Shown: piece by piece, positions 234-30,711 of the stretch
How the letters are laid out: the number at the start of each line of letters is the position of its first letter
How positions within the stretch are numbered: position 1 is the first letter of the stretch
Assembly (NCBI GenBank): GCA_029881725.1
Contig: JAOUMB010000025.1
Location: forward strand, 1 to 38,539
DNA length: 38,539 bases
DNA from: Nitrospirota bacterium
GTDB lineage: Bacteria > Nitrospirota > JACRHL01
Direction of reading: 5' to 3'
The notes under the pieces: generated by a model
What the model was told of the DNA's origin: nothing
Seen by the model: only the letters and a program-made list of their open reading frames with translations
Databases searched by the model: none
Translations under genes and position numbers: made by a program

Positions 234-1139
234 TTGGGCCGATCTGCTCAGTGCGGGGTGGGATTCCGCGTTTTTGTTATCCTGTTGTTTCTGGCCGGAT
301 GCCGCTCGGAAGGCCGGGGTGTGCCCGCACCCGAGTTGTTGCGCGTGGGAATATTGCCGGACCAGAGCGCGCAGGTGCTCACAGCCCGCTACAAGCCTCT
401 GATCGAGCACCTGTCGAAAACCGTCGGCATCCCGTTCCGGTACGTCCCTTGCGACAGTTACGATCAGTTGCTGGAAAAAATTGCCCACGGGGACATTGAT
501 CTGGCGTATCTGGGCGGTGTCACTTACGTGAAGGCCAGCCAGCAGGCCACCCTGAAACCGCTGGTCATGCGCCTTCGCGACACCCGTTTTACCAGCTATT
601 TTCTGGTGCGCGCCAGCCACCCGGCCCAATCCCTGCGTGACCTGCAAGGGCAGCGATTGGCCTTCGGCGCGGAACTTTCCACCTCCGGCCACTACATGCC
701 CCGCCATTTCCTGGAGCAGGAGGGAATTGCGCCGGAATCGTTTTTCGGAACCATTTCCTTCACCGGCACCCACGACGCCACCGCGCTGACGGTGGCAAAC
801 GGCCAGGCGGATGTGGGTGCCGCAAACGCGACGATTATCGACCAGATGCGGCGCGACGGCCGCATCCCGGAGGGAGCAATGCGCGTATTGTGGGAAACAC
901 CGCCCTATGCGGATTACGTGTGGGCCATACGCGCGGACCTGCCGCCGGAAGTCATCAACCGCACCCGTGACGCATTCCTGATGCTCGACGCGTCCCAGTC
1001 CGCCCACCGCCGGGTGTTGGAACCAATGGCCGCACAGGTGTTCCTGCCCGCCCGCAATGAGGACTTTGCTGCCCTGGCCGACATGATTTCCCACACGGAG
1101 CAATCAACCCGGACACACCCGGCGGGAGCACTCGAATGA
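234..1139 (+). CDS. PhnD-like periplasmic solute-binding lipoprotein (sensor component)
   Basis: This is a 301-residue periplasmic binding protein of the PhnD/phosphate-phosphonate family. The start is TTG at 234, set by AGGAGG at 221-226 with a 7-base spacer. The first 23 residues form a lipoprotein signal with lipobox L-A-G-C (Cys23), so the protein should be membrane-anchored on the periplasmic side. The family pattern is visible: a VGILPDQ strand early, the YVPCDSYDQLLEKIAHGDIDLAYLGG-type region near residues 65-90, and a second lobe with ADVGAANATIID near 190. Its stop overlaps the kinase start as ATGA. No ABC permease or ATPase gene lies nearby, so I infer it presents a ligand to the kinase rather than feeding a transporter. 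The ligand is unknown. PhnD-like domains are known as sensory inputs of kinases such as TtrS. Confidence 0.85.
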   Translation: MGRSAQCGVGFRVFVILLFLAGCRSEGRGVPAPELLRVGILPDQSAQVLTARYKPLIEHLSKTVGIPFRYVPCDSYDQLLEKIAHGDIDLAYLGGVTYVKASQQATLKPLVMRLRDTRFTSYFLVRASHPAQSLRDLQGQRLAFGAELSTSGHYMPRHFLEQEGIAPESFFGTISFTGTHDATALTVANGQADVGAANATIIDQMRRDGRIPEGAMRVLWETPPYADYVWAIRADLPPEVINRTRDAFLMLDASQSAHRRVLEPMAAQVFLPARNEDFAALADMISHTEQSTRTHPAGALE

Positions 1140-4100
1140 TCCCCTCCATCCAACGGCTGACCGGCAGCATTCGCCGGCTGATCCTGCTGCTGGCCGCCAC
1201 CATCCTGCTGTCCAACCTGGCCGTTGGCGCCTATGAGATGTGGGACGACAACCGGGAACACGCGGCACAGGAGGCCATACGCACCTACCACCTGAGCTCC
1301 ACCGTGCACGCCGAAGAGCTTATGGGCCGCCTGATGGGAATCCGGCTGGCGCTTGGCACCATGGGATCGCCGCAAACGCCTCCCGATACCGACTCCGCAC
1401 GCCGTGAAATCCGCGCTCTCCTGTACAACACGCAGGAACACCTGACGCAACTCACGGCTTTGCACCGGGCTTCCCCAAATCCCGCATTCGACGGCACCCT
1501 GGAGCGGATCGAACAGGCCTCCCGGACCCTGAACGCAGCATGGGCGGAAATAGAGCAGGGTGGCCCCTCCGCCCCGTTCCGGGATCATGTGGCCGCCCTG
1601 GAAACCCGGCTGCGGCAGTTGGAGCGCCTGCACTCCACCGAATTTCAGGCGGACCAGCAGCGCCTGGCGGACGTTTCCCGGAGCCAGGATCGGCTGTTGA
1701 TGACGTTGCTGCTCCTGTTGGTGGGAGGCGCGGGAGCCACCACTATCATGGTGCTGCGCGCGGTCAGCCGGCTGGTGGCCCGGCAATCCACCACCGAGTC
1801 CGCGCTGGTGGAGGAAGAGGCCCGCTACCGCTCGGTGGCCGAGACCATGAGCGACGCCCTGGTGATCGCCAGTGAGGACGGTCACATTCGCTCGTGCAAC
1901 CCCGCCACCGCCACCCTGTTCGGCTACGCTCCGGAAGAACTGCCGGGCATGAACGTGACCATGCTGATGCCGGAAGAAATGGCGGTACAGCACACGGCCG
2001 CATTGAAACACTTTCTGGAAACCGGAGAGGCCCGGGTGATAGGCAGCACGCGCGAGGCGGAGGGACAACGCCGGGACGGCAGCCGCTTTCCACTGGAAAT
2101 CAACCTGGGCCAGACCCAGGTGAAAGGCGTGCGCTACTTCACCGCCATCCTGCGCGACATCAGTGCCCGCAAGGAAGCGGAAAAACACCTGAAAGACAGC
2201 GAGCGGAAACTGCGCCGCGCCCATCAGATGTCCCGCCTCGGCCACTGGGAATGGGATCTGGACAGCGGCATCCTCACCTGGTCGGACGAAACCTTCCACA
2301 TCTTCGGACTCCGTCCCGGGTCCTGGGCGCCAACCTTCGACGGTTTCCACAACACCGTCCACCCGGACGACGTGGACCGGCTGGATTCGGCCCTGAGCGC
2401 AGCCCTGGAGCAGGGAGCCCCCTACGACCTGAAATTCCGCATCATGTGGCCGGATCAGTCGGTACGTCATGTGCACGCCGTGGGAGAAGGAACCCGCCAC
2501 CCCGAGACCGGCGCCGTGACCGGCATGAGCGGCACCATCCTCGATATCAGCGACACCATGCAGGTGCTGGAGGCGTTGGAGGAGACCACCGCCGAACTGG
2601 CCAAGGCCCAGCGCATCGCCGGCGTGGGCCACTGGGTGTGGGACATCCCCACTGGAGGCCTGTTCTGGTCCGACCAGTGTTATCGCATCGTCGGCTACGA
2701 GCCGGGCGCGGTTACCCCCAGCTACGAATTGTTCCTCGCCTCCGTGCATCCGGATGACAAAGAAAAGGTCATTCAGGCCATCGAATTCGCCCTCACCAAC
2801 CACACCACTTACAGCGTGGAGCATCGGGTGATGGCCAGCGATGGCAGCATCCACCACGTCCGGGAGCAAGGCGAGGCCACCTATCACCCGACGACCGGAG
2901 CCCCGCTCAAAATGCTGGGTACCGCCCTGGACATCACCGAACGGGTGCACGCCGAACAGGCTATCCGCGACAGCCAGGCCACCATGCTTCAGGCCCAGAA
3001 AGTGGGCCGCATCGGCCACTGGGTGCTGGACCTGGAAACCGGATCCGCCGCCTGTTCGGACGAAACCATGCGCATCCTCGGCCTGCCGCCGCAGGAATCC
3101 AACGTGCCACTGGAGAAAATTTTAGGTGAACTCGTCCTCCCGGAGTATCGGGACAGGCACCGGGCCATGATTCAGCAAGCCATCGAAACCGGCGGCACCT
3201 TCTCGGACCCGCACCGCATCCGCCGACCGGACGGCGAGGTGCGCTGGGCCCACGTGGCAGGCGAAGCGGTGTGCGATCCGCACACCGGACTCCCCCTGCG
3301 GCTGGTGGGCATTCTCCAGGACATTCACGAACAGAAGATGGTGGAACAGGCATTGGAGGAGAGCCGCACCGGACTCGATCGGGCCCAGCAACTGGCCCAC
3401 GTGGGCCACTGGGAGTGGAGCCCTGATAGCGGACAGGTGGCCTTCTCCTCCGAAATTATTCGTATCCTGGGGGAGGATACGGAAACCTACGCCCCCACCT
3501 ACGACGCATTCATGCAGGCCGTCCACCCGGAGGACCGCCAGCGGGTGGAACGGTGCACCCGCGTCACCGCCCGCACCGGCAAGCCACACGACACGGAATA
3601 CCGCATCGTACAGCCCACGGGTCGGCAGCGAATCGTGCACAGTGTGGGAGAGCGGGTGGCGGCAAACGAGGGGGAACCGGCCCGGGTGATCTGCGCCCTG
3701 CACGACGTTACCGCGCAACGCGAATCTGAACATGCCATCCGCCGCCTGAATGCCGAGCTGGAGCAGCGCGTGGTGGAGCGTACCCGCGATTTGGAACGGG
3801 AAAAAAGCCGAGTGGAAAACTATCTGGCCCTGGCTGGCACCATTTTCGTGGCACTCGACACGGAAGGCCGTATCACCCTGATCAACCGCAAGGGGTGTGA
3901 ACTACTGGGAAGGGCCGAGGAAGATTTGTTGGGCGAAGACTGGTTCGACACGGCCCTGCCACCTGAATCCGCCGATGCGGTGCGCGCCTTTTTTGTTGAT
4001 GCCATGAATGGAAATTCAGTGGTTCCCGTGTCATTTGAAAATGAAATCGGCATACCCGGCGGCCCCCGGCACACCATCGCCTGGCAAAACACAGAGCTGC

Positions 4101-5338
4101 TTGATGACGACGGGGTCCTTATCGGCACCCTCAGTTCGGGCCTGGACATTACCGATCGGAGAGCGGCTGAGGAGGCCCTGCACGCCCTGCACCGGCAAAC
4201 CGACCTGATCCTGTCCACCGTTGCCGAGGGCATCTACGGGCTGAACCCGGATGGCATCACCACCTTCGCCAACCCGGCTGCCGCGCACCTCACAGGATGG
4301 ACAGTGGAGGAACTGGCCGGCAGGTCCCAGCACGACACCATTCATCATTCCCATGCGGACGGCAGTCCTTACGATCGCGCCGACTGCCCCATCTTCAGGA
4401 GCATTCGCGAGGGCACCACGTGTCATGTGACGGATGAGGTATTCTGGCGCAAGGACGGCACCTCCTTTCCGGTGGAATACACGGTGACCCCCATTCTTGA
4501 TGACAGCGCGGTTTCCGGTGCGGTGGTCACCTTCCGGGACGTGACCGAGCGCAGGCGGGCCGAGGCCGAACTGCGCAGTGCCCAGCGCATGCAGGCGCTG
4601 GGCAACCTGGCCGGGGGCATCGCCCACAGCCTCAACAATCTGCTGTTGCCCATCGGCACCCTGAGCCAGATTACCCGTGATGAACTGGAGCCCGAGGACG
4701 AATCCTGGCAAAACCTGGACCGGGTGATGCAGGCCAGCAAACGGGCCGCCGACCTCACCAACCGGATCCTCACCTTCAGCCGCTATGACGAGCCGCGCAT
4801 GGAAATGATCGACCTGCCCGCCCTGATTTCGGACACCCTGGAATTGATCCGCCGCACCACCCCCTCCAGCATCCGGATCTACGCCAACATTGACCGGGAC
4901 GCGGGCATCACCCTGGCCGACGCCGGACAGTTGGAAAGCGTGGTGATGAACCTCGTTTCCAATTCCGTGGACGCGCTGGCGGACCAGCCGGGCGACATCG
5001 TCGTGTCGGTCACCCACGGCGACCCGGATGACAACGGCTTTGCGGATGGATCGGTGAACATCTCGATAACTGATACCGGCCCGGGGATCCCGGAAAAAAT
5101 CCGCGAGCGGGTATTCGACCCGTTCTTCACCACCAAGCCCGTGGGCAAGGGGACCGGCCTCGGTCTGGCCATGGCCCACGGCATCGTTACCCGGCATGGC
5201 GGCATCATCACCATTGCCGAAAATAACGGCGGAGCGTCGATTCGCATCCGCCTGCCGCGCGCTGCGGCCACAACCGCCGACGCACGGCAAACTCAAAAAA
5301 AGGAAAGCCACCCTCATGGCACGCATACTGATCATTGA
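1136..5338 (+). CDS. multi-PAS membrane sensor histidine kinase
   Basis: A 1400-residue hybrid-length sensor kinase without its own receiver. Membrane segments lie at about residues 14-33 and 185-207 and bracket a periplasmic domain of roughly 150 residues. The cytoplasmic part has seven PAS modules, beginning near 225, 362, 488, 618, 748, 892 and 1023. Modules two to five are PAS_3-like repeats that each open with an AQ-x-GHW-x-W signature. A coiled coil (ELEQRVVERTRDLEREKSR) follows module five. The dimerisation box GGIAHSLNNLL carries phospho-acceptor His1164. The ATPase domain has an N box (NLVSNSVDAL), DTGPGIP, FDPFFTTK and GKGTGLGLA, so it should be active. The box type matches NtrB-like kinases, though these usually read AHDFNN. 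It overlaps the lipoprotein gene by 4 bases and the receiver gene by 23 bases, which suggests one signalling unit. Confidence 0.92.
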   Translation: MIPSIQRLTGSIRRLILLLAATILLSNLAVGAYEMWDDNREHAAQEAIRTYHLSSTVHAEELMGRLMGIRLALGTMGSPQTPPDTDSARREIRALLYNTQEHLTQLTALHRASPNPAFDGTLERIEQASRTLNAAWAEIEQGGPSAPFRDHVAALETRLRQLERLHSTEFQADQQRLADVSRSQDRLLMTLLLLLVGGAGATTIMVLRAVSRLVARQSTTESALVEEEARYRSVAETMSDALVIASEDGHIRSCNPATATLFGYAPEELPGMNVTMLMPEEMAVQHTAALKHFLETGEARVIGSTREAEGQRRDGSRFPLEINLGQTQVKGVRYFTAILRDISARKEAEKHLKDSERKLRRAHQMSRLGHWEWDLDSGILTWSDETFHIFGLRPGSWAPTFDGFHNTVHPDDVDRLDSALSAALEQGAPYDLKFRIMWPDQSVRHVHAVGEGTRHPETGAVTGMSGTILDISDTMQVLEALEETTAELAKAQRIAGVGHWVWDIPTGGLFWSDQCYRIVGYEPGAVTPSYELFLASVHPDDKEKVIQAIEFALTNHTTYSVEHRVMASDGSIHHVREQGEATYHPTTGAPLKMLGTALDITERVHAEQAIRDSQATMLQAQKVGRIGHWVLDLETGSAACSDETMRILGLPPQESNVPLEKILGELVLPEYRDRHRAMIQQAIETGGTFSDPHRIRRPDGEVRWAHVAGEAVCDPHTGLPLRLVGILQDIHEQKMVEQALEESRTGLDRAQQLAHVGHWEWSPDSGQVAFSSEIIRILGEDTETYAPTYDAFMQAVHPEDRQRVERCTRVTARTGKPHDTEYRIVQPTGRQRIVHSVGERVAANEGEPARVICALHDVTAQRESEHAIRRLNAELEQRVVERTRDLEREKSRVENYLALAGTIFVALDTEGRITLINRKGCELLGRAEEDLLGEDWFDTALPPESADAVRAFFVDAMNGNSVVPVSFENEIGIPGGPRHTIAWQNTELLDDDGVLIGTLSSGLDITDRRAAEEALHALHRQTDLILSTVAEGIYGLNPDGITTFANPAAAHLTGWTVEELAGRSQHDTIHHSHADGSPYDRADCPIFRSIREGTTCHVTDEVFWRKDGTSFPVEYTVTPILDDSAVSGAVVTFRDVTERRRAEAELRSAQRMQALGNLAGGIAHSLNNLLLPIGTLSQITRDELEPEDESWQNLDRVMQASKRAADLTNRILTFSRYDEPRMEMIDLPALISDTLELIRRTTPSSIRIYANIDRDAGITLADAGQLESVVMNLVSNSVDALADQPGDIVVSVTHGDPDDNGFADGSVNISITDTGPGIPEKIRERVFDPFFTTKPVGKGTGLGLAMAHGIVTRHGGIITIAENNGGASIRIRLPRAAATTADARQTQKKESHPHGTHTDH

Positions 5339-5687
5339 CGACGAGGAACTGGCCCGTTACGCGGTTCGAAAAATCCTGACCGGCGCGGGGCATGACGTGA
5401 CGGAAGCCGAAAACGGCAGCAACGGCCTCGAATTGCAACGGAAGACCCCCTTCGATCTGGTGATTACCGACATCGTGATGCCCGAAAAAGAGGGCATCGA
5501 AACCATCATGGATCTGAAGAAGGAATTTCCCGATACCCCCATCGTGGCGATTTCCGGCGGCGGACGGCTGGGACCCACCGATTACCTGAACATGAGCAGC
5601 CAACTGGGCGCCCGCCAGACCCTGGCCAAGCCCTTCTCCCGCGACGACCTGCTGTCCGCCGTGGACACCTGCCTGGCCGCCGCGTGA
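5316..5687 (+). CDS. stand-alone response-regulator receiver domain
   Basis: A 123-residue CheY-type receiver with no output domain. The ATG at 5316 is chosen because the fold starts directly with ARILIIDDEE and an AAGGAAAG ribosome site lies just upstream; a longer open frame to 5196 only shadows the kinase. Acidic pocket residues Asp8 and Asp9, phospho-acceptor Asp52 (ITDIVMP), Ser in VAISGGG and Lys in LAKPFS are all present. It overlaps the last 23 bases of the kinase gene, so the kinase is its likely phosphate donor. Output must come from protein-protein contact or a further relay, since no DNA-binding or enzymatic domain is present. The stop lies within a 10-bp palindrome, GTGACGTCAC (5684-5693). 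Confidence 0.92.
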   Translation: MARILIIDDEELARYAVRKILTGAGHDVTEAENGSNGLELQRKTPFDLVITDIVMPEKEGIETIMDLKKEFPDTPIVAISGGGRLGPTDYLNMSSQLGARQTLAKPFSRDDLLSAVDTCLAAA

Positions 5688-15892: not shown

Positions 15893-17014
15893 TTATCCGG
15901 ATGAGGGATGGCGAATATACCGGTTACCAGGCAATTTTTCCACCAAGCCGGTCAATTCCAAGGTCAGCAGTTCCGTCAGCAACGCCGCAACCGGCGCCCC
16001 CACGCGCTCCGCCAGATCGTCCACCGGCACCGGCACCGAGTCCAGATGACCCAGTATGCGCCGCTGAATCTCCGGCAGTCCGGCCAAGAATGCCTTCTCC
16101 GCACAGGCAGCCCGTCCGCCCGCTTCACCCGCCAGTTGGGGAAGCAGGTCGCCGATCACGTCAAGCGGCCCGGTCACCAGCGAGGCCCCTTCCTGAATCA
16201 GCCGGTTGGTGCCGTAGGCACCTGGCTGCCCCACATTGCCCGGCACCGCATAGACTTCGCGCCCTTGCTCCGCCGCCAGGCGCGCGGTAATCAGCGAGCC
16301 GCTGTTCTTCCGCGCCTCGACCACCACCACCCCCATGCAAAGGCCGCTGATAATACGGTTGCGGCGCGGGAAATTGTGCCCCACCGGGCGGGTACCCGGA
16401 GGGTACTCGCTGATAACCGCCCCCTTTTCCACCAGCGCGGAAAATAGATCCCGGTGCTCCGGCGGGTACGCCAGATCAAGGCCGGTACCCAGTACCGCCA
16501 CCGTGTTCCCCTCCGCTTCCAGGGTGGTGTGATGGGCATACCCATCCACCCCCAGCGCCATTCCCGACACCACGGTAATTCCGGCGTCCACAAATGCCCG
16601 ACAAAAATCGCCGGTAACCTGTTTTCCGTAGGAACTCATCCAGCGCGACCCGACCACCGCCACGGTGCGTCCGGCCCGGGCCAACCCGTCCCCCTTTACA
16701 TACAGCAACGACGGCGGATCGGCAATTTCCCGCAAACGCGCCGGGTACTCCGGGTGTTCCAGCGGGAGCATGCGCACGCCACTGGCAGCGGCCCAGTCCA
16801 TCAACCGTTTCCCATCCCTGGAAGGGCGCGCGGTGCCGATGACCCGGGCCAGGGCGGGAGAGACATCCCCCTCGCTGGACAACCGCTCGGCGCCCGCGGA
16901 CAGAACTGCGTCGGCGGTGCCAAAGCGCTCGACCAGCCGGGCATAGCCGGCCACCCCGATCCCCTTTAGGGAGGACAGGGTCAGTGATGCGGCCACGTCC
17001 ACCGGCCCGCTCAT
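15893..17014 (-). CDS. dprA: DprA/Smf DNA-processing protein
   Basis: A 373-residue DprA, which loads RecA on incoming single-stranded DNA in natural transformation. A helix-hairpin-helix-like N-terminus (LSSLKGIGVAGYARLVERFG) precedes the Rossmann-like domain with VAVVGSRWMSSYGK, VVSGMALGVDGYAHH, AVLGTGLDLAYPPEHR, ISEYPPGTRPVGHNFPRRNR and VYAVPGNVGQPGAYGTN, all hallmarks. The C-terminal 60 residues form the winged-helix DML1-like domain (VDDLAERVGAPVAALLTELLTLELTGLVE). GGAGG lies 7 bases before the ATG. The start overlaps the upstream kinase gene by 4 bases. Presence of dprA alone does not prove competence, because it is also kept in non-transformable bacteria. Confidence 0.95.
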   Translation of the reverse strand: MSGPVDVAASLTLSSLKGIGVAGYARLVERFGTADAVLSAGAERLSSEGDVSPALARVIGTARPSRDGKRLMDWAAASGVRMLPLEHPEYPARLREIADPPSLLYVKGDGLARAGRTVAVVGSRWMSSYGKQVTGDFCRAFVDAGITVVSGMALGVDGYAHHTTLEAEGNTVAVLGTGLDLAYPPEHRDLFSALVEKGAVISEYPPGTRPVGHNFPRRNRIISGLCMGVVVVEARKNSGSLITARLAAEQGREVYAVPGNVGQPGAYGTNRLIQEGASLVTGPLDVIGDLLPQLAGEAGGRAACAEKAFLAGLPEIQRRILGHLDSVPVPVDDLAERVGAPVAALLTELLTLELTGLVEKLPGNRYIRHPSSG

Positions 17015-18585
17015 CCGGCGGCCTCCGCCCCGGCTTCTTCCGGCAGCAACGCGCCCAGTGCGGCGGTCAGGCGTTCCGGTGCATCCCGCTCCGTATCCAG
17101 CAGCACCGCCCGTTCCCGCTCCGCAGGGGAAAGGTCCTGCACCGAGTGAAGCTGGGCGTCCAGAACCTGGGTGGTGGCATCCGACAGGTCTTGACCCGCT
17201 GCCTGCCGCTCGGTCACTCGCGCCGCCAGCACCCGCGGAGGCGCATGCAGTGCAAGGATGAAAAACGGCACCCCAAGGGTCTCCGCAACCTGGCGGGCGG
17301 CCTCCCGTTGTGCCTGCTTGAGGTAGGTGGCATCCAGTACCACCGGGAATCCGGCGGACAACGCCTGCCCGGCCAGATGATGGAGGCGGTCATAGGTGGC
17401 GGCGGTCTGCTCCGGCCCATACAACCCGGCATCCACCGCCTCGGGGTGAGCGCTCCGCCCGATTCCGGCCAACCGCTTTCGTTCCGCGTCCGAGCGGATT
17501 CGAATCGCCCCGAATGTCTCCACCAGAGCCGTGCTGTAACGGGTCTTTCCGGTGCCAGTCACCCCGTGCATGATGGCCAGCCACGGACGCCGCATACGGG
17601 TGTATCGTTCCGACAGGGCCACCCGCTCCCGGATGGTTGCCACCTGGTCCGCCGCGTTCGGCGAAAGGGCCGCCACCTTGGCCCGCACATAGGCCCGGTA
17701 AGACAGGTACAGCGGAAGCATGACAAGCCCCGCGTAGTCACCTGTGTCCTCCAGGTAACGGTTGATTAAGCGCGCACCCAGATCCGGACGTCCACGTGCG
17801 TCCAGGTCCATGCGCGTGAACGCCACTTCGGCCATTACGTCAGTGAAGCGGAACAGTCGGTTGAATTCGATGCAATCGAACAATACCGGCTCGTCCTCCA
17901 GCAGCACCACATTCTGCAAGTGGGCATCCCCGTGACATTCCCGCACAAACCCATCCGCAAGGCGCTGTTCGATGCACCCCCCCAAACGCTCCAGGGCCTC
18001 CTCGCTCCACGCCTTGAGACGCGCATACCGATCGGAGGGAATCCACTTCGGCACGAATCGCCCGGTCAGTTCGAAATTGGCCATTACCGCCGCCCGGACC
18101 TGGGGCTCCCCACCCACGCCGTCCTCCGGTCGCGCCCGTGTCGCCTCCCGGTGAAAGGCGGCCAACACGTCCGCCAGCCGGTCCACATGGCCGGCAGTCA
18201 CCAGGCCCGCCTCCAGCATCCGGTCCATTTGCGCGGACTGTGGAAATTCGCGCATGCGCACCGCATACTCAATCGGCTCACCATCCCCGGCCACAATCGG
18301 GGCCGCCGGGGTTCCGGTGATCGGCACCACATCCAGGTACAGGTCCGCCGCCAGCCTCCGGTTGAGGCGCACTTCCTCCTCGCAGCAGTGGCGCCGGGCG
18401 GCCAGGGAAGTGTAATCGAGAAACCCGAAGTCCACCGGCTTTTTGATTTTGTAGGCGAACTCGCCGGTCAGAAACACCAGCGAAATATGCGTCTCCAACA
18501 CCCGCACCGGCTCCCGCACCGGGTGCGCGTAGGCCGCTGGCCGGGCCAGCCCCTCCCGGAGCGGATGGGGGGTGGTGTCCGGCAT
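17011..18585 (-). CDS. APH-like kinase fused to a P-loop kinase (bifunctional APH/ATP-binding protein)
   Basis: A 524-residue two-domain protein. The N-terminal 310 residues look like an aminoglycoside-phosphotransferase-type kinase: THISLVFLTGEFAYKIKKPVDFGFLDY gives the nucleotide-binding Lys region, and ECHGDAHLQNVVLLEDEPVLFDCIEFN gives the catalytic HGD-x-H-x-x-N loop and DxIEF metal site. The C-terminal 180 residues are a P-loop small-molecule kinase with Walker A GVTGTGKTRYS (near residue 345) and VVLDATYLKQAQR. Proteins of this architecture are widespread and mostly uncharacterised; a role in antibiotic resistance should not be assumed. It sits 27 bases after the Hsp70 gene and overlaps dprA by 4 bases, so it is transcribed with both. 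No strong ribosome site is visible before the only ATG. Confidence 0.85.
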   Translation of the reverse strand: MPDTTPHPLREGLARPAAYAHPVREPVRVLETHISLVFLTGEFAYKIKKPVDFGFLDYTSLAARRHCCEEEVRLNRRLAADLYLDVVPITGTPAAPIVAGDGEPIEYAVRMREFPQSAQMDRMLEAGLVTAGHVDRLADVLAAFHREATRARPEDGVGGEPQVRAAVMANFELTGRFVPKWIPSDRYARLKAWSEEALERLGGCIEQRLADGFVRECHGDAHLQNVVLLEDEPVLFDCIEFNRLFRFTDVMAEVAFTRMDLDARGRPDLGARLINRYLEDTGDYAGLVMLPLYLSYRAYVRAKVAALSPNAADQVATIRERVALSERYTRMRRPWLAIMHGVTGTGKTRYSTALVETFGAIRIRSDAERKRLAGIGRSAHPEAVDAGLYGPEQTAATYDRLHHLAGQALSAGFPVVLDATYLKQAQREAARQVAETLGVPFFILALHAPPRVLAARVTERQAAGQDLSDATTQVLDAQLHSVQDLSPAERERAVLLDTERDAPERLTAALGALLPEEAGAEAAG

Positions 18586-18612: not shown

Positions 18613-20127
18613 CTACAGGACGATCAGCTTCTTTCCCCGTCGGGCCGGACGCAACGCGGTAAGGTCACCAGAGAAGGCCACGTGCAGCTTGACCGGCTGG
18701 CGGTCCCCCTCCCAGGCGCTGATGGACAGGGCCCCCTGGGCGTCCACGTCGAATTTCACATGCAGGTCAGGATCCCCCTGGGGCACCCGCGGCAGCCCGT
18801 CCAGGCGCAGTTCCCCCAGCAGGGTAACGGCGCCATCCGCGTCCCGGCGCACGATGCGAAATACCACCTGGGACTGTTCGTCCTCCACCGTGGTGAACAC
18901 ATGCTCTCCGTCAGCGGGCAGGGCGGACCCGCGAGCCACCACCACCACCAGATGCCCCACGTCATCGGCCACCCCCAGATCGTAAGGAAGGTGCTCGTGC
19001 AGGGTGGGGAATTTGACCGGCTCGGACTGCTTTCCGGGAATGGTCATCTGGCCATACAGGGCGGCACCCACCGCCACCGCCTCGTCTGACCCCATCAACG
19101 GGTCGCTCTGGGCCACAACCGGCCCCAAACGCTCCATCATGCGTGCGCGGAAAGAGGGGATGGCGCTTGCGCCTCCTGAAAACACCACCCGCGAAATGCG
19201 GATGCCCCGCTCACGGGCATCATCCAACACCCCCTCCAGCAACCGGTCGGCCCGGTCCAGAAGCCCCTCCCACAGGGCCTCGGCGCCCTCCCGGGTCAGC
19301 TCCAGAGAGGTGCATTCCCGCCCCTCCAGCCAGGTATCGGGAATGCTCATGGTCACGTCGGTGTTGTAGGTCAGGGTCTCCTTGGCCCATCGGGACAGAT
19401 CCAGCAGGCGGAAGCGGAACTCCGGCAGGTCCGCCGGGTCAATGCCGGTTTCGTCCAAAATGTGGTGACACAGGTGATAGTACAGAACCCGGTCGAAATC
19501 CATGCCCCCCAGGTGGGCGTCTCCGGCCACCACGGGGACATCGATGATGTCGGCGGTGCAGGTGACCACCGACAGATCCAGGGTGGCGCCGCCAAGATCG
19601 ATGACCATGGTCGGCTCCCCGTCCCCAAGGCCCTTGTACAGGCTGCCCGCGTGGGGCATGCCGTAGGCCAGGGTGGCGGCCACCGGCTCGCTCACAATGG
19701 CGTGCAGTTTGACACCGGCCAGTTCCGCCACCTGATGCACCGCCGCCCGCTGGGCCACGTCGAAGTGGGCGGGTACCGCGATGGTCACAGGTCCCACCTG
19801 ATCGCCAAGGCGCTCCTCGGCGCGCTTGATCACCTTGCGCAGGATCAGGGAGCCAAGCTCCACCGCTGAGTACTCCCTGCCATGAAACAGAAAACTGCGC
19901 GGGCGTCCCATCCACCGCTTGCTCTGGATAGCGAGGTTTTCGGAACGCATGCCTGGATTCTGGAATGGGTCCTGACCGATCTGCACTACATTCGGGGTTT
20001 CGAAGTAGATCGTCGAGGGAATCAACGCGTTGCCGTCGCTACCGTAGAGCACACGCGGTTCGCCTCCGGCATCCACCCACGCGGCCACGGTGTTGGTGGT
20101 TCCCAGGTCAATACCGATCGGAGTCAT
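18613..20127 (-). CDS. short Hsp70-family chaperone without a lid domain
   Basis: About 504 residues. The ATPase domain is complete: IGIDLGTTNTVAAW at the start, MVIDLGGATLDLSVV (phosphate 2 region), GDAHLGGMDFD, and VFSGGASAIPSFRARM (adenosine site). The substrate-binding beta domain follows (ALPADGEHVFTTVEDEQSQV, LDGLPRVPQGDPDLHVKFDVDAQG). It stops about 20 residues later, so the alpha-helical lid of DnaK (640 residues) is missing, as in some HscC-like or accessory Hsp70s. The start is uncertain: ATG 20127 gives the usual beginning two residues before IGIDLG; ATG 20139 and GTG 20187 are in frame. No dnaJ or grpE is near. It leads the dprA-topA operon. Confidence 0.85.
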   Translation of the reverse strand: MTPIGIDLGTTNTVAAWVDAGGEPRVLYGSDGNALIPSTIYFETPNVVQIGQDPFQNPGMRSENLAIQSKRWMGRPRSFLFHGREYSAVELGSLILRKVIKRAEERLGDQVGPVTIAVPAHFDVAQRAAVHQVAELAGVKLHAIVSEPVAATLAYGMPHAGSLYKGLGDGEPTMVIDLGGATLDLSVVTCTADIIDVPVVAGDAHLGGMDFDRVLYYHLCHHILDETGIDPADLPEFRFRLLDLSRWAKETLTYNTDVTMSIPDTWLEGRECTSLELTREGAEALWEGLLDRADRLLEGVLDDARERGIRISRVVFSGGASAIPSFRARMMERLGPVVAQSDPLMGSDEAVAVGAALYGQMTIPGKQSEPVKFPTLHEHLPYDLGVADDVGHLVVVVARGSALPADGEHVFTTVEDEQSQVVFRIVRRDADGAVTLLGELRLDGLPRVPQGDPDLHVKFDVDAQGALSISAWEGDRQPVKLHVAFSGDLTALRPARRGKKLIVL

Positions 20128-20162
20128 GCCAAATCCCATATGGGCCGCCCGGTGGCCCGCGC

Positions 20163-20177
20163 CGTTCATTATGAACG
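20163..20177 (-). promoter_or_regulatory. 15-bp palindrome upstream of the Hsp70 gene
   Basis: CGTTCATTATGAACG is a perfect inverted repeat with 7-base arms around one central base. It lies about 36 bases before the preferred Hsp70 start and has the size of a dimeric repressor site. Its presence favours the downstream starts over GTG 20187, which would place it inside the coding region. No regulator can be named, and it does not match the CIRCE element. Confidence 0.35.
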
Positions 20178-20271
20178 CGGGAGACACCCCGGTTGGCGGC
20201 GAATGTTGAAAAAGCTCCAGTCTACCCGAAAATGCCGTTTTCCGGGACTGGCCGCCCGCGGACGGGGGGGT

Positions 20272-25873: not shown

Positions 25874-26365
25874 ATGGAAGCTGCATTTTTCGCCCGCTGG
25901 GCACACTTTATGGCCGGCATCACCTGGATCGGCCTACTGTATTATTTCAACTTCGTTCAGGTTCCGGGCCTCGGCGCCGCCAAGGCCGACGGCACCGCCC
26001 CCGGCATCACCAAGCACATCGCCCCGCGCGCCCTGCTGTGGTTCCGCTGGGCCGCGGTGGTAACCTGGCTGTCCGGCGCCGCCATGCTCGGCCACATGGG
26101 CATTCTGGGCAAGGCATTCATGCTGCAGGGCAGCGCCGCGGTGATCGGGATGGGTGCCTGGCTGGGAACCATCATGCTGTTCAACGTGTGGGTACTGATC
26201 TGGCCGAACCAGCAGAAGGTGCTAGGCATGGTCGAGGCCTCCGATCAGCAGAAGGCCCGCGCCGCCCGTGTGGCGCTGCTGGCCAGCCGCACCAACACCA
26301 TGCTGTCGATTCCCATGCTGTTTTTCATGGCCGCCAGCATGCACGGACGCATGTTGTTCGCCTAG
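25874..26365 (+). CDS. PuuD-like (urate oxidase N-terminal family) membrane protein
   Basis: 163 residues with four predicted helices (about 8-30, 52-75, 83-110 and 135-155). Sequence such as FARWAHFMAGITWIGLLYYFNFVQVPGL and GAWLGTIMLFNVWVLIWPNQQKVLG fits the membrane part of PuuD-type proteins. True PuuD carries a C-terminal cytochrome c domain; this protein has none and no CxxCH, so urate oxidation is doubtful. His11 and the other buried polar residues could bind a heme b, but this is inference. An ACTCGGGAGCAACCC ribosome region precedes ATG 25874. A strong hairpin terminator follows it. Confidence 0.7.
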   Translation: MEAAFFARWAHFMAGITWIGLLYYFNFVQVPGLGAAKADGTAPGITKHIAPRALLWFRWAAVVTWLSGAAMLGHMGILGKAFMLQGSAAVIGMGAWLGTIMLFNVWVLIWPNQQKVLGMVEASDQQKARAARVALLASRTNTMLSIPMLFFMAASMHGRMLFA

Positions 26366-26417: not shown

Positions 26418-27884
26418 TCAGGCGCGCCGGGCCAGAACCCGGGCCACCAGCTCCGGATCCAGCCGCACCTGCAATACCTTTTCACCGGTAACCAGGGTCT
26501 GGCCTGGCTTGCCGCCCTTGGGACGGCGCACGTATTTGCGCGGAGTATAGATTACCTCCCCGCCCCCCTCCTGTTTCAGGCGGCTGAAGTGGGCCGCCAA
26601 CTGCGCCGCCTCCATCAGCGCCGCACCCGAATCCGCCCCCCGTCCATGCAGCACCACGTGCGCCCCCTGTACGTCCCGCGCGTGCAGCCACAGGTCTTTG
26701 CCGTTGGCCATGCGGAAGGTGAGCCGGTCATTTTCGGCACCGCTGCGCCCGACCCAGATCTGCCGCCCGTCCGATGCCATAAAGGTGCGCACGCCCGAGC
26801 CGCCCCCCCGCGACGGTTTTTCCGCCACCGGTGCGGCAGCCACGCCAACCCGCTCCAGCACCTCCCAGGGGACACCTCCCGCCGCCAGTTCATCGCGGGC
26901 CGCGGCCAGCCGGGCCACCTCCACCCGCGCCTCCGCAATGCGCCGGGTCAGCTGCGGCAGCCCCCGCCTGGCCTTCCGGACCCGTGCGAAGCGCACCGCG
27001 ATGTTCTCCTCCGGGGTCTTGTCCGGTGCCAGCGCAATCACCCGTTGCGGACAGCCGTCGGTAAACCAGTCGGTCACCGTCACCTGCGCCATGCCCCGCT
27101 TCAGCAGGTGCCGGTGACCGGACAGCAACTCCCCTTCGCGGCCAACCTCCTCCCACCCCTGCAACCGTGCAAGGTCCCCCTCCATATTGGCCAATCGCCG
27201 GGCCGTGCGCGCGCATTGCCGCTTCAGCCGGCGGGACACCTCGGTGCGGACCTCCTGCTCCGCGTGCGCCGCGATCCAGTGGGCGTAACAGGCTTCCAAC
27301 GCCGCCCCCTCCAGTGGCGAAGCGGATGACCCGAACGCACCGGCCTCCGTCTCCTCCGGCGCTTCCGGAGGCCGGTACGGTTGCCCGGTAACCAACCCTC
27401 GCGCCCCACCCGGTCCATACCAGGCCAGCACCCGACGGCGGTCGTCGAGTAACACCATGCGCCCCTGACGGAACAATTCCAGCACCAGCGTCGCCTGCCA
27501 CTCCGACTCCCCCTCCCCGTGCCGGGAAACCGTGACTTCCACCACCCGCCCGTTACCGGGAATAGAAACGGATACCAGCCGTGAAGGACGCATCAGGGAA
27601 CGGGCGCGCAGGGCAAATGGGCCGGGATCCGGGGGCGTCGGGGGCAGGTCCCCGGCCACGTGAAAACGGGCCAGTCCCGCCACCACCCCGGCCACCACAT
27701 CCACGTTGCGCCCCCGGTGACGCACCGTAAGCGCCAGGTGGTCCGGAAGCGGGCGCCGCACCTTCACTACCACGCCACCGGTGGCCAGACGGTTCACCGC
27801 ATCCACAGCACGGGCAATTTCGGCCACCGACATACCCCGCGGGGAATCCGGAAAAAGGTCGTTATTTTGATTGTCCACAGCCAT
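26418..27884 (-). CDS. rqcH: NFACT family protein (RqcH-like ribosome quality control factor)
   Basis: 488 residues, against roughly 550-580 in Bacillus RqcH. The NFACT-N domain (to about residue 210) contains VVVKVRRPLPDHLALTVRHRGR and a hydrophobic LVLELF-x-x-GRMVLLDD strand pair. A coiled-coil middle (residues about 215-350) and the NFACT-R domain follow, with SDGRQIWVGRSGAENDRLTF, KDLWLHARDVQGAHVVL and YTPRKYVRRPKGGKPGQ, which match the family closely. RqcH adds alanine tails to nascent chains on stalled 50S subunits. The Asp of the DR motif important in Bacillus (D97-R98) appears as Gly112-Arg113 in my alignment by eye. Starts ATG 27884 and ATG 27833 both lack a good ribosome site. Confidence 0.8.
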   Translation of the reverse strand: MAVDNQNNDLFPDSPRGMSVAEIARAVDAVNRLATGGVVVKVRRPLPDHLALTVRHRGRNVDVVAGVVAGLARFHVAGDLPPTPPDPGPFALRARSLMRPSRLVSVSIPGNGRVVEVTVSRHGEGESEWQATLVLELFRQGRMVLLDDRRRVLAWYGPGGARGLVTGQPYRPPEAPEETEAGAFGSSASPLEGAALEACYAHWIAAHAEQEVRTEVSRRLKRQCARTARRLANMEGDLARLQGWEEVGREGELLSGHRHLLKRGMAQVTVTDWFTDGCPQRVIALAPDKTPEENIAVRFARVRKARRGLPQLTRRIAEARVEVARLAAARDELAAGGVPWEVLERVGVAAAPVAEKPSRGGGSGVRTFMASDGRQIWVGRSGAENDRLTFRMANGKDLWLHARDVQGAHVVLHGRGADSGAALMEAAQLAAHFSRLKQEGGGEVIYTPRKYVRRPKGGKPGQTLVTGEKVLQVRLDPELVARVLARRA

Positions 27885-28115: not shown

Positions 28116-29642
28116 ATGACGCTGTTTGCCAGACTGACCACTTCCCTCACGATTTCCGCGGCTGCCGGAGCGACCGCCCTGATGTTGCTGACCTCGGGAC
28201 ACCTGCCGTTCGGGGTAGGTGGCCTGCTTGTGGCAGGGCTGCTGTTGGCCAGCACGGCGGGTCTGGCCCGCTGGGCGATCCGTCCGCTGCAACAGTACAT
28301 CCGCCCGCTCGGAAGACGCGCCACCGACCCGTGGCAGGACGTGCCCAACCGGGCCGGAGAGGCGTGGGAGCTGTTGATGGCCCACGTGCAACAGGGCTCC
28401 GGCCGGCCCCATTGGCCGGATGGGGGACTGCCGGGGAACCCGGTGCTGTCCTGCCTGTTCCGTGCCGCCACCGCCGATTCCCCCGGCCAGTCCCACGAGG
28501 TGTTCATGAGCCGCTTTTTCGCGGACTGGATCAGCGACGGCACCCTGCGCGCGGTGGCGCTGGTGCAGGGGCCCCGCCATTCGGTCTCCTTTTTGCCGCA
28601 CTGCCCTCCGGGCCAGCGCCCGCTGCATCGGGAGGATATTCCATCCGCGCTGCGCAAACTTCCCGCCACCGCCACCCGGCCACGGGTGGAGACCACCGGC
28701 AACGCCGTATGGGCGGCATTTCCCGTCGGTCCGGCCCCGGCCCATCCCGGCGCCCACGTGGGCGGTGGCGCCCGCAGCCTAATCGTGGCTTGGCCGCCGG
28801 AGCACCGCATCGACGTCCAGGAAATGGTGGGATTGGCCACCGCCGCGCGCTACATCGGCACCCGCGGCACGCCGCTCCATCATTCGCAACCCACCACCTC
28901 CAACGGCATCGAGCCACCCGATCTGCAGGCCAGCCTGCTCTCCTATCTGGGCAACCAGATGCACGACCTGGTGGGCGAGGTGGAGCAGTTCTGCACCGCC
29001 ATGCAGGACGCTGCCCGCCCGGATGCCGACGCGGTCCCACAGGCCCTGCTGGCCCGTGGCCGCCGGTTGCAGGAACGCTTTGGAGAAATTTTCCACGCGG
29101 TGGACGACGGCTGGCTTCCGGCCCGCGCCACCCCGTGCCCGATTCACGTCCCGTCCCTCATCGAGCAGGTGGCCCTGCCTTATGAGGATGCCTTGGAAAC
29201 CGGCCAGATCGGCCTGCGCTGTGACGCCCATGGCGCCGAGGACCCGGTAACCACCGACCCGGTGGCCCTGGCCGCCATCATGGACGTGCTGATTTCCAAC
29301 GCGGTGCGCTTCACCCCCGACCACGGCCGCATCGCCGTGCGGGTCTCCCGGCAAGGCCGGGACGGCCAACTGGTAATCGCCGTGCGCGACTCCGGCCCCG
29401 GCATCTCCGGTGAAAGCGTCGACCATCTGGGCGAACCGTTTTATCAGGGCCGGGAGCAGGCCTTCCGGCTGGAAACCGGCAAGGGGCTGGGGCTGGCTCT
29501 GGCCCAGCGGCTGGCCCACCGCATGGGCGGCACCCTGGACGCCGCCGGCTCCGACGGCAAAGGCAGCACCTTCGTCCTCCGTATTCCCCTCGCCACCCCG
29601 GCGCCCGCTATGCGCCCGGCGACCCTGGAACAGACGGTCTGA
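28116..29642 (+). CDS. membrane histidine kinase with intact ATPase and weak phospho-acceptor box
   Basis: 508 residues. Two N-terminal helices (about 9-27 and 31-53) with almost no periplasmic loop are followed by a GAF-like region (about 115-255) that is not clearly assigned. The dimerisation box reads YLGNQMHDLVGEVEQF; His283 lines up with the usual acceptor, but the following R-x-P-L of HisKA is missing. The ATPase domain is complete: ISNAVRF with Asn395, DSGPGIS with Asp425, and GKGLGLALAQRL. It is probably an active ATP-binding kinase with limited autophosphorylation. Its stop lies 4 bases before the next kinase gene, so the two are made together. No response regulator gene is adjacent. 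Confidence 0.85.
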   Translation: MTLFARLTTSLTISAAAGATALMLLTSGHLPFGVGGLLVAGLLLASTAGLARWAIRPLQQYIRPLGRRATDPWQDVPNRAGEAWELLMAHVQQGSGRPHWPDGGLPGNPVLSCLFRAATADSPGQSHEVFMSRFFADWISDGTLRAVALVQGPRHSVSFLPHCPPGQRPLHREDIPSALRKLPATATRPRVETTGNAVWAAFPVGPAPAHPGAHVGGGARSLIVAWPPEHRIDVQEMVGLATAARYIGTRGTPLHHSQPTTSNGIEPPDLQASLLSYLGNQMHDLVGEVEQFCTAMQDAARPDADAVPQALLARGRRLQERFGEIFHAVDDGWLPARATPCPIHVPSLIEQVALPYEDALETGQIGLRCDAHGAEDPVTTDPVALAAIMDVLISNAVRFTPDHGRIAVRVSRQGRDGQLVIAVRDSGPGISGESVDHLGEPFYQGREQAFRLETGKGLGLALAQRLAHRMGGTLDAAGSDGKGSTFVLRIPLATPAPAMRPATLEQTV

Positions 29643-29646
29643 GCCG

Positions 29647-30711
29647 ATGGATTTTCGCCCCCGGTTTCACATGCGCGGCCAACCGGGCCCGCCACCGGCC
29701 AGCATCCACGCGGAGGAAACCACCGCCCAGCGGTTGCAGGCGGTTCTTTCCGATGTAAGCGAGCGCTGCGGCGCGGACGCGGGGGTACTGCTGGGACACG
29801 AAGCGGACGGCTGGCGTCTGCTGGGGGTCAGCGGCGCGGCCACCCGCATGCGGGTCGGCAGCATGTTTTCCTTCGACCAGAACCCTTCTCTGTCCCCCAT
29901 CTTTGCAGATGAGCGCCCCCCGATGCCCACCGTGGAGCCGTTCATCGAAGCCCTGGGACCCATTGCGCTGGGGGATGCCATTCATTGCCCCATCGGCACC
30001 AGTGATGGACTGGCCGGCATGCTCTGCCTGTATACCGCCTGGAGCCGCCCGTTCCAGCCCGAGCGGGCGGATCTGGCCACGAAAGGGGCGGAACTGGTGG
30101 CCGCCCTGTTGGCCGAAACCGCTCTCCCCCCGTCCGGGGACGATCAGGATCCCACCTCCATCCTGTCCCTGGCGGTGTCGCTGCTGAACCACGACATGCG
30201 CTCACCCATTCATGCCATTCTCGGATTTTCCGAACTGCTGGCCACCCGCGACGGCGCCAGCCAGGACGAAATTCGCTATACCGCCACCATCCGCGAGGGG
30301 GGTGAACAGATGTCCCGGCAACTGGATCAGGTGGTGGGGTTGATGCGCCTGATCCTCGGCGAGACGCGCCCCGCGCCGGCCCCGACCCCGCTGGTCAGGG
30401 TGCTGGACGACCTGCCCTGCACCCAGGTTCCCAAACTGACCGTATTGTGGGATGCCGCGCTGGTGCGCACCGCGCTCATCGACCTGCTGGATTACACCGA
30501 AACCGCGGGCACCGGCCGCAATCTGACGGCTTCCTCCGGCGAGGGACGGGTATACCTGACCATCGGCCAGACGCCCCAAGCTCCGGAGCCGGTAGGGCTG
30601 GGTTTTCGAAGTGCCGGAGTGCAACGCGCCCGCCAGTTGATCGACCTGCACGGAGGCACCCTGCAATCCGATGCCAGCGGGTTCGGTTTCACCATCATCC
30701 TTCCGGTCTAG
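29647..30711 (+). CDS. GAF-domain histidine kinase with intact acceptor box and degenerate ATPase
   Basis: 354 residues from ATG 29647; longer in-frame openings only shadow the upstream gene. A GAF domain spans about 20-165 (RCGADAGVLLGHEADGWRLLGVSG, CPIGTSDGLAGMLCLYT). The HisKA box NHDMRSPIHAILGFSELL is textbook, with His182 as acceptor. The ATPase domain is damaged: the N-box Asn is replaced by Tyr283 (LLDYTET), the D-x-G-x-G loop is missing, and the GLGL loop is reduced to VGLGFRSAG; only the last strands (LIDLHGGTLQSDASGFGFTIILP) look normal. It should not bind ATP well, and may be phosphorylated by the preceding kinase. No membrane segment is present. Its stop shares the bases CTAG with the convergent fabH stop. 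Confidence 0.85.
   Translation: MDFRPRFHMRGQPGPPPASIHAEETTAQRLQAVLSDVSERCGADAGVLLGHEADGWRLLGVSGAATRMRVGSMFSFDQNPSLSPIFADERPPMPTVEPFIEALGPIALGDAIHCPIGTSDGLAGMLCLYTAWSRPFQPERADLATKGAELVAALLAETALPPSGDDQDPTSILSLAVSLLNHDMRSPIHAILGFSELLATRDGASQDEIRYTATIREGGEQMSRQLDQVVGLMRLILGETRPAPAPTPLVRVLDDLPCTQVPKLTVLWDAALVRTALIDLLDYTETAGTGRNLTASSGEGRVYLTIGQTPQAPEPVGLGFRSAGVQRARQLIDLHGGTLQSDASGFGFTIILPV

Follow-up and report, generated by a model that had tools for sequence, protein, structure and literature searches.

Introduction

Histidine kinases that are divided between two proteins are already known. The adjacent genes Rv0600c and Rv0601c of M. tuberculosis, which lie beside a regulator, encode small, cut-apart domain proteins; one has the ATP-binding domain and the other has the acceptor His. 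The two proteins are said to cooperate with TcrA (PMC9274095). In Rhodobacter sphaeroides, CheA3 and CheA4 form a split CheA, in which catalysis and the acceptor reside on separate proteins and neither works alone (PMC3591291), and 3.66% of HisKA proteins have no detected HATPase (PMC3591291). Other proteins keep the frame of a kinase and serve a different function. ChpT from Caulobacter and Spo0B from Bacillus are dimeric histidine phosphotransferases (PMC3433190), while PhyT/PhyP from Sphingomonas and RetS from Pseudomonas are kinase relatives with a degenerate ATPase that act on another signalling protein (PMC5898713, PMC5992135). Our literature search for heterodimeric histidine kinases returned nothing beyond the systems compared here.

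How does the present locus relate to these systems? It consists of two adjacent genes, hereafter called HK1 and HK2, in a 38,539-nucleotide stretch of DNA from a Nitrospirota bacterium (the window). The less usual feature is that two full-length GAF-DHp-CA proteins bear complementary dead halves. The HK1/HK2 pair resembles CheA3/CheA4 in the placement of catalysis and the acceptor on separate proteins. However, CheA3/CheA4 have the P1 (Hpt) and P3/P4/P5 domains and chemoreceptor input, whereas HK1 and HK2 are of the HisKA type, with DHp and CA frames. HK1 and HK2 gave no match to Hpt, H-kinase_dim, or CheW, while the three real CheAs of the same genome do match CheA domains. Accordingly, the parallel to CheA4/CheA3 drawn in the initial annotation holds as an analogy of function, but does not extend to the proteins themselves, as neither has the CheA P1 (Hpt), P3, or CheW domain. 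As far as descriptions can be compared, Rv0600c/Rv0601c are similar in that adjacent genes separate the ATP-binding domain from the acceptor His. In contrast to them, both domains are kept in HK1 and in HK2, the dead half being a different one in each; each protein also has an input domain, and no regulator is adjacent.

HK2 resembles ChpT and Spo0B, in that its acceptor His lies in a HisKA-like hairpin followed by a CA-derived domain without ATP motifs, but it differs from them in its GAF domain and its neighbour with an intact CA domain, and phosphotransfer by HK2 is putative. HK2 also shares an intact acceptor box and a degenerate ATPase domain with PhyT/PhyP and RetS; however, PhyT is of the HWE/HisKA_2 type with an HRxxN motif and belongs to the phyR locus, and RetS, a hybrid that carries receiver domains, targets another kinase, GacS. 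HisKA-type precedents are closer than CheA: Rv0600c/Rv0601c for the split kinase, and ChpT, PhyT, and RetS for a HisKA protein with a dead CA domain.

Organization of the locus

The two genes occupy the same strand and are arranged as follows.

26418-27884, minus strand: NFACT/RqcH-like gene, upstream of and divergent from HK1
28116-29642, plus strand: HK1, membrane-anchored sensor kinase half, 508 aa; catalytic side retained, acceptor gone
29643-29646, plus strand: spacer of 4 bases between the HK1 stop and the HK2 start
29647-30711, plus strand: HK2, soluble acceptor half, 354 aa
30708-31736, minus strand: fabH, convergent with HK2; the 3′ ends overlap by 4 bases

The open reading frames, the 4-base gap, and the residue numbers agree with the initial annotation of two adjacent histidine kinase genes. 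Hereafter, G000 denotes the genome of the window organism, and G001, G002, and G003 denote relatives in the same family; the locus was seen only in these four species. The intergenic gap is 4 bp in G000, 3 bp in G003, and 4 bp in G001, and these three genomes share the gene order malQ, Urate_ox_N-like gene, NFACT, HK1, HK2, fabH. As the initial annotation had observed, no response regulator is adjacent: a scan of the ORFs surrounding the pair in G000, G003, and G001 found none, and the closest one in the window (5196-5687) is about 22 kb from the pair.

HK2 retains the acceptor half

The features of HK2 are as follows.

29728-30105, plus strand: GAF domain (residues 28-153), weak Pfam match below the cut-off; absent from the G003 orthologue
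30175-30342, plus strand: HisKA domain, with His182 (30190-30192) in NHDMRSPIHAILGF
30367-30708, plus strand: degenerate CA domain (residues 241-354); N-box Asn replaced by Tyr283, DxGxG gone, lid deleted, HGGTL tail retained

Pfam identifies a canonical HisKA domain in HK2 (5e-8), with His182 inside the box NHDMRSP, consistent with the intact acceptor box described initially. The best PDB sequence match of this domain is the Caulobacter pseudokinase DivL (4q20, E 1.8e-6), which is also among the top fold matches of both HK1 and HK2. DivL has a Tyr where the acceptor His would be, in contrast to HK2, which retains the His. As confidence in the AlphaFold models of the two proteins is low (mean pLDDT 55 and 56), we use the fold matches as support only.

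Pfam finds no HATPase_c domain in HK2. Nevertheless, its C-terminal 114 residues match a profile of about 75 CA domains (hhalign probability 95.0, E 3.9e-8), as compared to 0.6 for the reversed-sequence control, which rules out an unrelated domain and shows that the C-terminus is a CA domain by descent from which the motifs were removed. The reported absences of the N-box Asn (Tyr283) and the D-x-G-x-G loop are both observed, and the lid is deleted as well. In the three HK2 orthologues, the N-box Asn is Tyr, His, and His, while all three lack the DxGxG loop and the ATP-lid segment; thus, none of them has ATP motifs. A frameshift or truncation as the origin of the motif loss is ruled out, because the identical deletion occurs within an open frame in three independent genomes. 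In the box HDxRS, the Asp is present, but Ser replaces the Thr/Asn of the HE/DxxN/T phosphatase motif in 3/3 orthologues; this motif, the criterion for a bifunctional split kinase (PMC3591291), is therefore absent from all three.

HK1 retains the catalytic half

HK1 comprises the following regions.

28122-28301, plus strand: N-terminal membrane hairpin, its two helices (about residues 3-62) joined by a very short external loop, based on the sequence and the AF2 helices 3-26 and 32-62
28434-28862, plus strand: GAF-like region (about residues 107-249), from the predicted topology only, without a Pfam match
28914-29102, plus strand: DHp helices 267-299 and 307-329; Asn280 (28953-28955) in the acceptor position, His283 (28962-28964) 3 residues downstream
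29256-29594, plus strand: CA domain (HATPase_c), with the N-box Asn395, D425-x-G-x-G, and GKGLGL

The ATP-binding domain is complete, as initially read: Asn395, Asp425 with its DxGxG loop, and the G-K-G-L-G-L stretch from residue 455 are all found, and Pfam matches HATPase_c (4.6e-24). In contrast to the catalytic side, HK1 has no Pfam match to HisKA, and its DHp region corresponds to no recognised HisKA-type family. Alignments of the DHp region alone were insignificant, and the register was taken solely from a profile of 49 DHp+CA kinase cores (G000 and G003), which HK1 matches with a probability of 99.9. In this profile, Asn280 falls at the acceptor His and His283 at the K/R of H-E-L-K/R-T-P, and so the register does not support His283 as the canonical acceptor. 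The residue at the acceptor position is Asn in G000, Leu in G003, Ala in G001, and Tyr in G002, where the Leu was read from the HK1 alignment, as the register obtained with the G003 sequence by itself was different and weak. The canonical acceptor His is thus missing from HK1 in 4/4 orthologues. The “poor acceptor box” of the initial annotation is indeed defective; however, with His283 out of the acceptor register, the canonical acceptor is better described as missing than as poor.

The HK1 and HK2 profiles can be aligned with each other across 232 columns (probability 92, as against 0.4 for the reversed control), and both proteins retain a co-linear DHp-CA frame. Their GAF regions have no significant mutual alignment.

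Genome-wide census of kinase domains

The genome of the window organism (2.96 Mb, 98% complete) contains 33 HisKA and 39 HATPase matches. HK2 is the sole HisKA protein of the 33 without a HATPase just downstream. Conversely, seven of the 39 HATPase matches lack a HisKA: HK1, three CheA, GyrB, MutL, and one STAS/RsbW-like protein. Thus, the one acceptor and the one HisKA-type catalytic domain that have no counterpart of their own in this genome lie next to each other, and the pairing of HK1 with HK2 is more than chance. Where might the phosphate go? Nine receiver matches above the cut-off have no HATPase within several kb (one each on contigs C3, C27, C61, and C90, two on C81, and three on C11), and many hybrid kinases are encoded in the genome.

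Complementary constraint on the two proteins

We used 20 reciprocal-best pairs of ordinary kinases from G000 and G003 as controls, and compared DHp with CA conservation. The DHp region is better conserved than the CA domain in 20/20 controls (DHp 66-97%, CA 55-83%, difference +2 to +31). HK1 reverses this order, with 51% for DHp versus 67% for CA (-16), and its DHp is less conserved than those of all 20 controls. The chief weakness of this comparison is that the HK1 DHp region was delimited by hand, at a length similar to that of the HisKA stretches of the controls. HK2 exaggerates the ordinary order, with 64% for DHp versus 37% for the CA-like region; the former is slightly under the control minimum of 66%, and the latter is below every control CA. 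Between these two species, therefore, constraint on the catalytic half of HK1 equals that on ordinary kinases, constraint on the acceptor half of HK2 comes close to it, and the remaining two halves drift.

States of the locus in the family

In G003, the same pair is present, and the CA domain of HK1 is intact. The G003 HK2 has 226 aa and lacks the GAF domain (L069:12558-13238), and thus the input domain of HK2 may be dispensable or replaceable. In G001, the pair is present, but the N-box Asn of HK1 is changed to Glu, and the DxGxG loop and the lid are gone, whereas HK2 keeps its acceptor box (NHDLRSP). In G002, the locus consists of NFACT, a single HK1, and fabH, without HK2 (L115, G002:C349). 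This HK1, at 699-2075, is an intact 458-aa ORF in which the acceptor, the N-box, and the DxGxG are all missing, and it stands as a complete pseudokinase in the place of the pair. The lesions are therefore conserved as a complementary pair in G000 and G003, but not throughout the family: the HK1 CA domain is dead in G001, and HK2 is absent from G002. No HK1 or HK2 homologues beyond the family were found in 396 genomes of the phylum, and a non-exhaustive pattern scan of the GTDB species genomes returned generic kinases only.

The family locus thus presents several states: full-length kinases that share the sites between them (G000, G003), a dead HK1 with an acceptor-only HK2 (G001), and a doubly dead HK1 alone (G002). 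If functional, these states of kinase decay would record how a split kinase turned into a sensor that signals without phosphorylation, a reading that we offer as tentative and somewhat unlikely. In the FabH tree, G000 joins G003 (91), but G001 joins G002 with only 66% support, which makes any direction of change among the states tentative.

A proposed mechanism and its alternatives

We propose that, in the window organism and G003, HK1 and HK2 constitute one histidine kinase spread across two proteins, whereas this does not apply to G001 or G002. We consider this proposal probable, if only just. The complementary motifs, the census, the constraint pattern, the loss of the HK1 acceptor, and the spacing and synteny support it. 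The mechanism would be as follows.

Assembly: HK1, anchored in the membrane by its hairpin, would receive input through its GAF-like region and supply the ATP-binding CA domain. HK2 is soluble, has a GAF input domain of its own, and would supply His182 in a canonical HisKA bundle, and we infer that it has lost ATP binding. HK1 would dimerise with HK2 via the DHp bundles.

Phosphotransfer: In this heteromer, HK1 would phosphorylate His182 of HK2 in trans. From phosphorylated HK2, the phosphate would go on to an unlinked response regulator.

If this is correct, then the locus encodes a HisKA-type kinase that is naturally split into two proteins with an input domain apiece, and phosphorylation would require complex formation as well as two signals. 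The model of such an arrangement in CheA3/CheA4 gives ultrasensitive or bistable responses; it requires, however, a strict phosphatase motif, which is absent from HK2. The pair would also be a compact example of complementary loss in adjacent kinases, with more decay in the sister genera. Three observations count against the split kinase, a locus that only four species carry. First, HK2 of G001 keeps its box although the CA motifs of HK1 are lost, so at least there HK2 is fed otherwise or works otherwise. Second, G002 has no HK2. Third, His283 of HK1 is conserved in G000 and G003, in the stretch of the HK1 DHp with the highest conservation, which makes self-phosphorylation conceivable. In view of G001 and G002, the “obligate hetero-kinase” of the initial annotation, in which HK1 phosphorylates HK2, fits the window organism and G003, with their complementary lesions and conserved halves, but not the family as a whole.

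The state of G001, with an acceptor box retained beside an HK1 without ATP motifs, leaves room for a different function of HK2, as a phosphotransferase or phosphatase like ChpT, Spo0B, or PhyT, derived from a kinase. His182 would then exchange phosphate with receivers charged by other kinases, and HK1 would be separate or a membrane anchor. HK2 has the layout of ChpT, in which a HisKA-like hairpin is joined to an atypical Bergerat domain without ATP binding (PMC3433190). Another parallel is PhyT/PhyP, a kinase relative in the membrane whose ATPase is degenerate (PMC5898713). The many hybrid kinases and about nine kinase-distant receiver ORFs could be connected by an HK2 of this kind. However, this alternative leaves HK1 unexplained: the only acceptor-less HisKA-type CA domain of the genome lies 4 bp upstream of HK2 and is under ordinary CA constraint. 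Moreover, Ser, instead of Thr/Asn, occupies the HE/DxxT/N phosphatase position of HK2 in all three orthologues. We regard this alternative as fairly unlikely.

Alternatively, the pair may be decaying, or may act independently of phosphorylation as sensors or scaffolds, with catalysis being lost. This is consistent with the HK1 of G001, which has neither the acceptor nor the ATP site, with the doubly dead 458-aa HK1 that stands alone in G002, and with the fast evolution of the HK1 DHp and the HK2 CA. In G000 and G003, however, the 67% of the HK1 CA is inside the ordinary range of 55-83%, and the 64% of the HK2 DHp is barely under the ordinary 66-97%; these values near the control ranges argue that both halves are still constrained, and make this explanation distinctly unlikely. 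Finally, self-phosphorylation of HK1 is conceivable, as His283 lies within the first DHp helix in the unusual box MHDLVGEV, is followed by an acidic residue, is common to G000 and G003 only, and is flanked by the best-conserved windows of the HK1 DHp (10/15), but a complete HK1 kinase with HK2 as an accessory is very unlikely, as the 49-core profile puts Asn280 at the acceptor position and His283 at the K/R position, and the HK1 DHp matches no HisKA-type family and is conserved less than in all 20 controls.

Other features of the window

Apart from the pair, the window encodes a large multi-PAS histidine kinase of 1400 aa (1136-5338), which follows a phosphonate-binding-type periplasmic protein (234-1139). 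The small receiver ORF at 5196-5687 overlaps the 3′ end of the multi-PAS kinase gene in another frame. At 17011-18585, an APH+AAA_33 kinase-like protein adjoins the gene for a short Hsp70/DnaK-like protein (18613-20187, minus strand; 524 aa), which scores far under the DnaK equivalog cut-offs and is also found in G003 (L069:1072-2589). At 25874-26365 on the plus strand, a 163-aa protein matches the C-terminal part only of Urate_ox_N (PF06181), and its position is conserved in G003 and G001. Between 20344 and 23636 on the minus strand, genes for a Rieske protein, a cytochrome b, an ExtQ-like protein, and a c-type cytochrome follow in series. The cytochrome b is ExtP-like, slightly under the NCBIfam cut-off, and the series constitutes a bc-type complex that resembles parts of the selenite/tellurite reduction operon and is partly conserved in G003 and G001.
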